DNA from: Alphaproteobacteria bacterium
Lineage (GTDB): Bacteria; Pseudomonadota; Alphaproteobacteria; Bin65
Assembly: GCA_021776685.1 (NCBI GenBank)
Contig: JAJFFJ010000017.1
Location: forward strand, 1-64,000
Direction of reading: 5' to 3'
Length of the DNA stretch: 64,000 nt
Shown: positions 10,716-20,733 of the stretch, piece by piece
Numbering within the stretch: position 1 is the stretch's first letter
How the letters are laid out: every line of letters starts with the position of its first letter
Program-made: the position numbers and the translations under genes
Notes under the pieces: model-generated
The model's input: the letters and a program-made list of their open reading frames with translations, nothing else
What the model was told of the DNA's origin: nothing
Databases searched by the model: none

Positions 10716-11813
10716 CTATTCCGCGGCGGCCGGTTGACGCTCGGCTATCGGGGCGACTTTTTTCAGTTCCGGCATCACGTCCGACGCGAACAGGCGCATG
10801 TTGCGCTCGGCCTCTTCGGCGGCCATCCCGGCATAGCTGAAGACGCCCACAAAGCTGTCAGAGCCCGCCTTGTTCGAGATGCTGACGATTTTCTCGTAGC
10901 ACATCTCCGGGGTGCCCCAGACCTGCAGGTTCATGAAGAATTTGGTCGCCTCGTCGGCACCCTGGGCCGCCAGGTTATCGGCGAACTTGCCGTAATACTC
11001 ATACCCCTTGGTGGTCTTCATATGGTCGCCGGCAAATTCGTAATGCCTCAACACCGAGTCCCAATAGCCACCGATATACCGGAGCGCGCCCTCATAGGCG
11101 GCCTCCTCGTCCTCGTGAACGAAAGTCCAGCCGGCGGTGACCGGTGGCGGCGCGTCGAAGCAGTTGACCCGGTTGAACAGCGCGCGATAGTCCGCCAGTT
11201 CCTTCGCCACATGCTCCCACGGTTTTTGCGGGATGATCAGCAGGCCGATGCCAAGCTTGGCCATAATCTCCGCGCTTTCGGGCGAGACGGCGGCGGCATA
11301 ACTGCGGCCTTTGAAGGTCTGCGCAGGGCGGGGGCGGATATCCACCCGTGGCTGGGTGTAATGCTTGCCGTCATATTCGCAGTAGCCCTGCTCGAGGCCA
11401 GTCAAAACCATCTCGGCCGCCTCGACGAACCGCTCGCGGCTTTCGTCCATGGGAATGCCGAAACCATTGAACTCCACCCGCCCAGCGCCGCGGCCGATGC
11501 CAAAGATCACCCGCCCGCCTGACAGATGGTCGAGCACCGAAATTTCCTCCGCCACCCGGTAGGGGTCGCGCCAGGGCAGCACCACCACCATGGTGCCCAG
11601 TTTCACGTCCTTGGTGCGCCCCGCCATATAGGTGAGGAACTGCACCGGGTCAGGGCACATGATGTAGTCGGTGATGTGGTGCTCCGTCGCCCAGATCGAC
11701 TGGAACCCCAAGGGCTCGGCCAGGTCGGCCAGCGCCAAATCTGCGGCCCACACTTCGCCGTCCGGCCGCTGGTCATCGGGGTTCTGGAAGATGAAACTGG
11801 CGCCCACATGCAT
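10716..11813 (-). CDS. luciferase-like (LLM class) flavin monooxygenase
   Basis: 365 residues with the bacterial-luciferase-like barrel: SIWATEHHITDY near the N-terminus, LGTMVVVLPWRDPYRVAEEISVLDHLSGGRVIFGIGRG, and VTAGWTFVHED. Members use reduced FMN or F420 to oxidise alkanes, sulfonates or other small substrates. The substrate is not determined. Its stop is 3 bp from the stop of the convergent DUF302 gene. Confidence 0.88.
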   Translation of the reverse strand: MHVGASFIFQNPDDQRPDGEVWAADLALADLAEPLGFQSIWATEHHITDYIMCPDPVQFLTYMAGRTKDVKLGTMVVVLPWRDPYRVAEEISVLDHLSGGRVIFGIGRGAGRVEFNGFGIPMDESRERFVEAAEMVLTGLEQGYCEYDGKHYTQPRVDIRPRPAQTFKGRSYAAAVSPESAEIMAKLGIGLLIIPQKPWEHVAKELADYRALFNRVNCFDAPPPVTAGWTFVHEDEEAAYEGALRYIGGYWDSVLRHYEFAGDHMKTTKGYEYYGKFADNLAAQGADEATKFFMNLQVWGTPEMCYEKIVSISNKAGSDSFVGVFSYAGMAAEEAERNMRLFASDVMPELKKVAPIAERQPAAAE

Positions 11814-18001: not shown

Positions 18002-18441
18002 TTCAAAACCTCCCTGTTAGAACGAATTCGCCCTGTCGCAGTTCTCTGATTTCTCGACCGTTTTTCTGACCGGGGCGGATCGATACGTTGCTTTGATATC
18101 TACCATTGCCTTCAGGCACCAACCATTGGCGTGAAAACCGTGCCAATTGGATACGGCAACTTAGGTGATGAATATACGAGATTGCAGTTGTATAGACAAC
18201 ATGGCCTCTGGATATGAAATCGGGAATGTCCGAAAATTCAGTTCCGATGGCTTGACGCGTTCTCGGTCCAAACACGACACCCCGAGGCGGCCCTGGTTGG
18301 TCGCCGGCAGCCGACCCCAAATCGCCATCCTGGAGGCCAGTAGGGGTGTCAGATTCGCAGTTTGGGTCGGCGCCAAATTATACGGCGGCAATTTCAAAAA
18401 AACGGCGCGCCGCCCGGATCGTAAGAAGGAGGACCCCTGAA
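18002..18441. promoter_or_regulatory. divergent intergenic region of dctP and the AhpD-like gene
   Basis: No credible gene is present. The stretch is AT-richer than its surroundings. GTTGT-N4-ACAAC at 18187-18200 is a perfect 5-bp inverted repeat resembling FadR-type GntR operators (TTGTnnnnACAA), 186 bp before dctP. CCAATTGG at about 18136-18143 is another small palindrome. Promoters for both genes should lie here. Confidence 0.4.
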
Positions 18442-19566
18442 GTGAGCCAGATCGACTACAACCATAGCCCCTATGATATCGGCAGCAATCTTGTCCATGC
18501 TCATCAGCGGGCCTGGGCGCGGCTTGCGGCGCCGGGAACATGGTGGGATGCCGCCACCCGAGTTGCGATTGCGTCAGAAACCCGGAATGCCCTGGACTGC
18601 GCCTATTGCGTCACGCGCCGCGATGCCCTGTCGCCCTATTCCGTTGAGGGTGAGCATCAGGTTGCGGGCGATCTGCCAGACGTTTTGGTTGAGGTCATCC
18701 ACCGGGTCCGGACGGACGCGACGCGGCTGACACGAAAATTCTACCAGGATGCGCTGGCTGGCGGTTTAAGCGCCGGAGAATATGTAGAGACGATCGGTGT
18801 CATGGCGACGGTGATTGGAATCGACGGGTTCACCAAGGCGCTGGGCCTGCCAGTGCATCCCTTGCCGGAACCCGTTGCGGGCGAGCCATCCCATCGCCGC
18901 CCCACCAAGACGAATGATGCCCTGGCCTGGGTTCCGACGGTCGCGCCGGAAGATGTCACGGAGGCGGAATCGGACCTTTATGATGGGCTTGCCGGCGTGA
19001 ATATTCACCGTGCACTGAGCCTGGTTCCGGCGGAGGTTCAGGGCTTGTTTGACCTCGACCGGGTTCACTACCTGCCCGACTTCGCCCTGCGGGACAAGGA
19101 CACCGACTATTTTGACAGTCGCGCGCTCACCCACCCGCAGATCGAGTTTCTCGCGGCGAGGGTGTCCGTCATCAACCAGTGCGTCTATTGAACCACCAGC
19201 CATGCGGTTCTGCTCCGTGCGAGCGGCGAAAAATCTGGTGAAGACTTTGACCTGCACGGCATCGTTGATGCGGAGACCACCGGGTTGGCGGTGCCCGGCG
19301 ACGTGGTGCTGCGCGACTATGCGGATGCGTTTTACGAAGCACCCCAGAACCTGGCCGGTATCCGGGACCGGATGGAGCAGGAACTCGGCGCTGCGGCCGT
19401 GGTCGAAGCCGCCGCGCTGGTAGGTATCTACGACGCGGTCGTCAGGGTCGCCGACTCGACCGGAATTCCCATCGAGGAGTACAAGGTCGAACCGACCAAA
19501 GACATGCGCCAGAGCCTCGGCATCAATGATTTCCACTCAGCCGGAGAATCGGGCGGGGCGTCCTGA
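18442..19566 (+). CDS. double-domain AhpD/CMD-like protein, candidate selenoprotein (CxxU)
   Basis: 374 residues if TGA at 19189-19191 is read as selenocysteine. GTG at 18442 follows AAGGAGGA at 18426-18433. Domain 1 has the redox motif C53-A-Y-C56. Domain 2 (from about residue 225) reads INQ-C247-V-Y-[TGA250]-TTSH: in AhpD the peroxidatic pair is CxxC with His four residues after the second Cys, and that second Cys is exactly where TGA stands. The frame continues 124 codons without a stop, in CMD-like sequence (GIVDAETTGLAVPGDVVLRDY, EAAALVGIYDAVVRVADSTG), to TGA at 19564. A SECIS-like stem-loop follows the TGA. Predicted role is a thiol/selenol peroxidase. Without Sec insertion the product would stop at 249 residues. 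Confidence 0.75.
19192..19240 (+). promoter_or_regulatory. candidate bacterial SECIS element
   Basis: Directly after the in-frame TGA, CACCAG (19194-19199) pairs with CTGGTG (19235-19240); inside it CATGCGG (19201-19207) pairs with CCGTGCG (19215-19221) with one A.C mismatch and two G.U pairs. The apical loop UUCUGCU starts 17 nt after the TGA, within the spacing SelB needs, and GGUUCUGCUCC resembles the GGUCUGCACC tip of the E. coli fdhF element. Confidence 0.6.
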
Positions 19567-20115: not shown

Positions 20116-20733
20116 CTACTCCGCCGCCGCAGGCAGGTGATCGCTTGGGTCCCAGGGCGTTTTCTCCGCAAGGCCAAAGTCCGCCGCCCAGTCCAGGGTT
20201 TCCTGATCAATCTCCGTCTGCAAAACGTCGTTGAAGCAGTTCAGCCAACCGAACAGGCTAACGACCGAAGTGATCTCCACAATCGCAGCGTCGCTATAAT
20301 GGTCTTTCAGCCGCGCGAAGACCGCGTCGTCCACAAGGTTGGGCACCTGCGCAGCGCACTGGGCGTAAGTCAGTGCAGCTCGCTCCGCCTCGTTGAACAG
20401 GTCGCTGGTCTCATAACCCCAGACCGCATCAATCTTCTCACCGGCGATGCCCCAGCGCGCAGCACTCTTGACGTTGTGGGCCTGGCAGTATTGGCAACCC
20501 CGCGTACGGCTGGCCATGTAGGCGATCAGGAACCGCAGGCCGCGGTCGATCAGTCCTTCGTCACGGATCACCGCTTTGGACAGGTCCATGAAAGCTTTCA
20601 GAATTTCCGGCCGGTGCGCCAGGGTCAGGTAGCTTTTGGGGATATAGCCGTTGGACTTGAGAATGATGTCGAAGTCCGGCGCCAGCTTGGCCGGGATGTC
20701 GGATTGGTCGATGGGCGTGACGCGAGAGACCAT
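20116..20733 (-). CDS. AhpD/CMD family peroxidase-like protein
   Basis: 205 residues. RGCQYCQAHN holds the AhpD-type CxxC redox pair followed by His, in the all-helical carboxymuconolactone-decarboxylase fold. Members reduce peroxides or serve in aromatic degradation. It is the first gene of a pair with 3-hydroxyanthranilate dioxygenase (5-bp gap), suggesting protection of the oxygen-sensitive dioxygenase or a pathway step. It is a standard-Cys relative of the protein at 18442-19566. Confidence 0.87.
   Translation of the reverse strand: MVSRVTPIDQSDIPAKLAPDFDIILKSNGYIPKSYLTLAHRPEILKAFMDLSKAVIRDEGLIDRGLRFLIAYMASRTRGCQYCQAHNVKSAARWGIAGEKIDAVWGYETSDLFNEAERAALTYAQCAAQVPNLVDDAVFARLKDHYSDAAIVEITSVVSLFGWLNCFNDVLQTEIDQETLDWAADFGLAEKTPWDPSDHLPAAAE

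Follow-up and report, generated by a model that had tools for sequence, protein, structure and literature searches.

AhpD-related selenoproteins and the gene under study

The closest described relative of the protein reported here is hypothetical protein 1 of the Sargasso Sea selenoproteome, which was presented by Zhang et al. in 2005 (PMC1088965) with a CXXU motif and a SECIS-like stem-loop, and for which a table in the available part of that paper counts 7 Cys homologues in the Sargasso data and 5 in genomes. In the available portion of a 2026 review (PMC13188914), the NCBIfam family NF041238, 'AhpD_rel_CFYUT' or in full alkylhydroperoxidase-related (seleno)protein, is given as 'AhpD-related protein (hypothetical protein 1, Sargasso Sea metagenome)' with the motif CxxU. 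Two other ocean selenoproteins, AhpD-like 1 (COG2128) and AhpD-like 2/CMD (pfam02627), also have CxxU in an AhpD/CMD fold, but the accessible text of PMC2398784 keeps them apart from hypothetical protein 1 as families of their own, which have COG2128 or pfam02627 domains and many Cys homologues. As for the catalytic layout, excerpts of PMC3141380 give the relay of M. tuberculosis AhpD as E118/C130/H132/C133/H137, note that PA0269 has Tyr for His132, and assign AhpD an adaptor role besides that of a peroxidase.

The window, by which we mean the whole 64-kb stretch of alphaproteobacterial DNA that was analysed, has on its forward strand a gene whose predicted product is assigned by its sequence to this family of redox selenoproteins of marine bacteria, which had been catalogued before. 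In fact the product matches NF041238 with 435.1 bits against a cut-off of 175, over residues 15-365 and model positions 3-356 of 357; the family motif C-x-Y-U-T with UGA at U is present as CVYUT (19180-19194), and Pfam CMD matches in the second half (residues 226-264). The match over both domains, the CxxU motif, the SECIS-like hairpin after the UGA and the occurrence in marine and related proteobacteria are all in common with NF041238 and hypothetical protein 1. Nothing essential differs from the 2005 description as far as it is available, except that the Cys homologues listed there were not seen among the full-length members here. The sequence-only reading had supposed that there may be no description yet of a two-domain form whose one half carries Cys and whose other half carries Sec. 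This did not hold, as the 357-position model of NF041238 spans both domains of the protein and the review, in its available portion, lists the family. Considering the full-length model match and the published equation with hypothetical protein 1, two domains are the normal form of the family. The features of the gene are as follows.

18428..18432, + strand: Shine-Dalgarno-like GGAGG, recognised from the sequence, 9 nt before GTG 18442
18442..19566, + strand: predicted NF041238-family selenoprotein gene, 374 residues including Sec250, GTG start, TGA stop at 19564-19566
18484..18891, + strand: N-terminal degenerate AhpD-like domain, about residues 15-150 (hhalign against domain 2; helix order in the model)
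18598..18609, + strand: domain 1 Cys-pair codons, C53-A-Y-C56
18994..19536, + strand: C-terminal catalytic AhpD/CMD domain, about residues 185-365 (Pfam CMD; PDB relative 6k40)
19180..19191, + strand: active-site codons, C247-V-Y-U250
19189..19191, + strand: predicted Sec codon TGA, residue 250 (TGA in 120/120 members covering the site)
19201..19203, + strand: codon of the invariant His254, four residues past Sec
19210..19226, + strand: SECIS-like hairpin, stem 19210-19215 with 19221-19226, loop CGTGC at 19216-19220

The in-frame TGA, its relatives and its hairpin

From GTG 18442 the frame runs over 249 codons to the TGA at 19189-19191 and over 124 codons more to the TGA at 19564-19566, and standard gene calling would stop at codon 249. 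The layout that had been proposed earlier, namely an in-frame TGA at the second Cys position of C-V-Y-x-TTSH, a frame going on for 124 codons to a second TGA and an ordinary C-A-Y-C pair in domain 1, was confirmed, the active-site motif being N-Q-C247-V-Y-U250-T-T-S-H254 and the domain 1 motif D-C53-A-Y-C56. Since 7 of the 53 long TGA-ended ORFs of the window have 124 or more open codons after their stop, such a frame is not rare and the case for Sec must rest elsewhere; the weight lies on the protein similarity running through the TGA, the TGA at the same codon in relatives and the downstream hairpin.

A search for selA, selB, selC and selD in the host genome had been suggested by the sequence-only reading, and all of them were found: selA, selB, selD and a tRNA-Sec with the anticodon TCA lie together on contig C84, all above family cut-offs. 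Moreover, a co-occurrence sample of the class comprised 385 genomes, of which 56 have selA and 27 have the NF041238 family, every one of the latter together with selA (27/27; Fisher p = 3e-26), while the family occurs in 0 of the 329 selA-negative genomes; in 8 of the 27 family-bearing genomes a member is located within ~6 kb of selA.

The same class sample yielded 52 full-length members in the 27/385 genomes, with one TGA in the match of each and all of these at one alignment column. A pattern scan of a contig database gave 551 candidate loci, which were ranked by similarity to the window protein, and the best 80 of the 551 were taken as further loci, some of them repeating the first set; they are labelled Alpha-, Beta-, Gamma- and Deltaproteobacteria, Myxococcota and Binatia. 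As the scan pattern sits upstream of the TGA and is without the Sec codon, there was no selection for TGA among the fetched loci. After duplicates were removed, 120 members (including the best 80 of 551 loci) cover the active site, and TGA is found in 120/120. Cys at residue 250 was found in 0/120 members of the class sample and the best 80 of 551 loci, a set from which the ranking by similarity to the window protein could have left out Cys forms that are more distant. The expectation that relatives would have Cys (TGC/TGT) at 250 was thus not realised, every full-length relative having TGA instead. This is not counted against Sec, because it is TGA that the relatives carry, and distant single-domain AhpD homologues carry Cys. 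In a phylum-wide genome sample the family was found in the host genome only. Across 118 full-length rows, E235, C247, Sec250 and H254 are invariant, and Y249 is replaced once by Phe.

The hairpin starts 18 nt after the UGA and has a stem CTGCTC/GAGCGG with a small, G-containing loop CGTGC. It is under synonymous-codon selection beyond the protein constraint. Among 88 conserved columns, the synonymous skew ranks Arg259 first, Leu258 second and Ser261 third: Arg259 is CGT in 104/117 (background 12%), Leu258 is CTC in 118/118 (background 25%) and Ser261 is AGC/AGT in 119/119 (background 39%). The codon next after Arg259 ends in G in 119/119 against 49.9 expected, though its amino acid varies. When the 52 first sequences were redrawn synonymously, the 289 pairs observed stood against a mean of 166 and a maximum of 199 in 1000 redraws. 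Compensatory change lends modest support only, because the stem core hardly varies and the observed pairing was reached in 6/1000 trials when codons were permuted within column and amino acid. Rfam shows no element at gathering threshold in the gene 18442-19566, as is expected for a bacterial SECIS.

Altogether, the full Sec machinery, the TGA in every relative, the codon-level selection on the hairpin and the strict co-occurrence with selA strongly support that the TGA at 19189-19191 would be read as selenocysteine, residue 250, just as the sequence-only reading had put forward. It could be argued that this TGA is a true stop leaving a truncated protein of 249 residues, as TGA is a normal stop in the host genome and open frames of 124 codons after long TGA-ended ORFs are not rare (7/53, see above), or that it results from a mistake in sequencing or assembly, the true codon being TGC/TGT. 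We consider both extremely unlikely, since the TGA recurs at the same codon in all 120 relatives with conservation extending past it, selA co-occurs strictly and synonymous constraint follows directly downstream; moreover, the same error could not recur across independent assemblies.

Two AhpD-like domains and the probable function

With the family alignment, AlphaFold gave a confident all-helical model (mean pLDDT 94.6, pTM 0.94) in which the helix order of the two halves matches, and when the two domains were aligned with each other by hhalign (E = 0.00025), C53/C56 fell opposite C247/U250. In domain 2 the AhpD-type relay is complete, with E235, C247, Y249, U250 and H254 and with Sec in the second Cys place. 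The five residues are spaced as in M. tuberculosis AhpD and PA0269/6k40, with Tyr for His132 like PA0269 in the available text of PMC3141380; whereas those proteins have one domain with CxxC, the window family has two domains and Sec at the second Cys. In domain 1 the relay is incomplete, with V41 and R60 at the AhpD Glu and His positions; the position of R60 is mostly Lys across the family. The Cys pair C53/C56 is present in 111/118 rows and missing in 7/118, and Sec is kept in those seven. A divergent subgroup (L046, L047, L048, L073, L074) is without the domain 1 Cys pair and keeps C-F-Y-U-T, and one genome (G298) has two tandem genes of this subgroup.

The best PDB matches are AhpD-like peroxidase-related proteins, including 6k40; as all Foldseek E-values are >0.001 (best 5.3e-3), they support the function at the fold level only. 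Human Sestrin2 is likewise built of two AhpD-like halves in pseudo-symmetry, of which one is redox active and the other altered, and it has an active-site Tyr and His, but according to the available part of PMC4674687 its active half is the N-terminal one, with a single Cys and with Leu at the Sec position. The Sestrin2 match is weak (E ~0.08, TM ~0.47, rmsd 13.4) and no common descent is claimed.

We hold with high confidence the explanation as a whole, i.e. a NF041238-family selenoprotein with hairpin-guided UGA decoding, a duplicated AhpD-like fold and a redox centre in domain 2. SelB and Sec-tRNA would read the UGA at 19189-19191 as Sec, guided by the hairpin just downstream, for which the case is strong, and the predicted product would be a duplicated AhpD-like fold. 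By analogy with AhpD, the most likely target of the U250 selenolate would be a disulfide or an organic hydroperoxide, with C247 then resolving the Sec as a selenenylsulfide. For domain 1, a second peroxidase centre is less likely than a dithiol with a structural or electron-relay role, because its relay Glu and His are lost and its Cys pair is kept in nearly all members. The function of the protein is most likely that of a selenol-dependent peroxidase or disulfide reductase.

The gene neighbourhood was considered as well. Upstream on the opposite strand are the TRAP transporter genes DctP, DctQ and DctM, and downstream are a 3-hydroxyanthranilate 3,4-dioxygenase-like protein and a single-domain Cys-type CMD protein (20116-20733, - strand) with C-Q-Y-C, whose best NCBIfam match, the YciW-related (seleno)protein NF053654, is below cut-off. 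These surroundings suggest a catabolic island, without implying a shared operon with the selenoprotein gene. A luciferase-like monooxygenase gene (10716-11813, - strand) also lies in the catabolic-looking region. When neighbours were clustered across family members, fatty-acid and CoA-type genes recurred in a scattered way, with no clear pathway or substrate.

With Sec inserted, two further roles may be weighed against the preferred one. It is possible, and we put it forward tentatively, that the protein works chiefly as an adaptor or disulfide reductase, either recycling a peroxiredoxin in the way AhpD serves AhpC or passing electrons between the dithiol of domain 1 and the selenenylsulfide of domain 2. 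Its relay matches AhpD, itself both adaptor and peroxidase in the excerpts of PMC3141380, and C53/C56 are widely kept (111/118 rows); yet no ahpC-like gene is prominent among the recurrent neighbours, and the seven rows without the domain 1 pair still keep Sec. A Sec-dependent dehalogenase or other thiol-redox enzyme of the CMD fold, resembling the debrominase Bmp8 and serving halogenated or aromatic catabolism, seems unlikely. The Bmp8 structures 6ohi/6ohj are indeed among the Foldseek matches, some MAGs with close relatives carry a sponge name or marine source label, and GST, the 3-hydroxyanthranilate dioxygenase-like protein, esterases and an amidase are nearby in the window. However, the Bmp8 match is weak (best rank 12, E = 0.14) and falls below ordinary peroxidase-related proteins, and the neighbourhoods of other members differ so that no single pathway fits.

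Paralogues and predicted selenium dependence of the family

The host genome has five NF041238 members, each with a single TGA in the family match, and in a FastTree tree rooted at the midpoint these are spread over different parts of the family. The window copy is placed beside the host copy on contig C120. Two more NF041238 genes flank the selA-selB-tRNA-Sec-selD cluster of the host (L052, G000:C84:18000-36000); in the same tree these two copies group with those of further genomes belonging to the host's taxonomic family, and in three of these genomes the copy likewise lies near selA. The host selD lies in a longer open frame of 769 aa, and at four related loci (L010, L035, L056 and L057) neighbouring ORFs resemble an oxidoreductase fused to SelD; Ndh-SelD fusions are reportedly found in ocean data.

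In the available parts of the sources on the NF041238 family, there is apparently no report of the absence of a Cys member, of five paralogues in one genome with two flanking sel genes, of a domain 1 with C-x-x-C but without the AhpD Glu and His, or of a weak Sestrin-like fold match. As a conjecture that we think quite improbable, this may be an obligately Sec-dependent double-AhpD family whose five paralogues in one alphaproteobacterium have diverged to other electrophiles such as organohalogens besides peroxides, the dithiol of domain 1 serving to reduce the selenenylsulfide from within the protein.

No Cys form of the family was found among the full-length members examined, and in the sampled class it never occurs without selA. 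This Sec-only occurrence together with the strict selA link makes the family well suited as a marker of selenium dependence, and as a case in which to study why certain enzymes fail to return to Cys.
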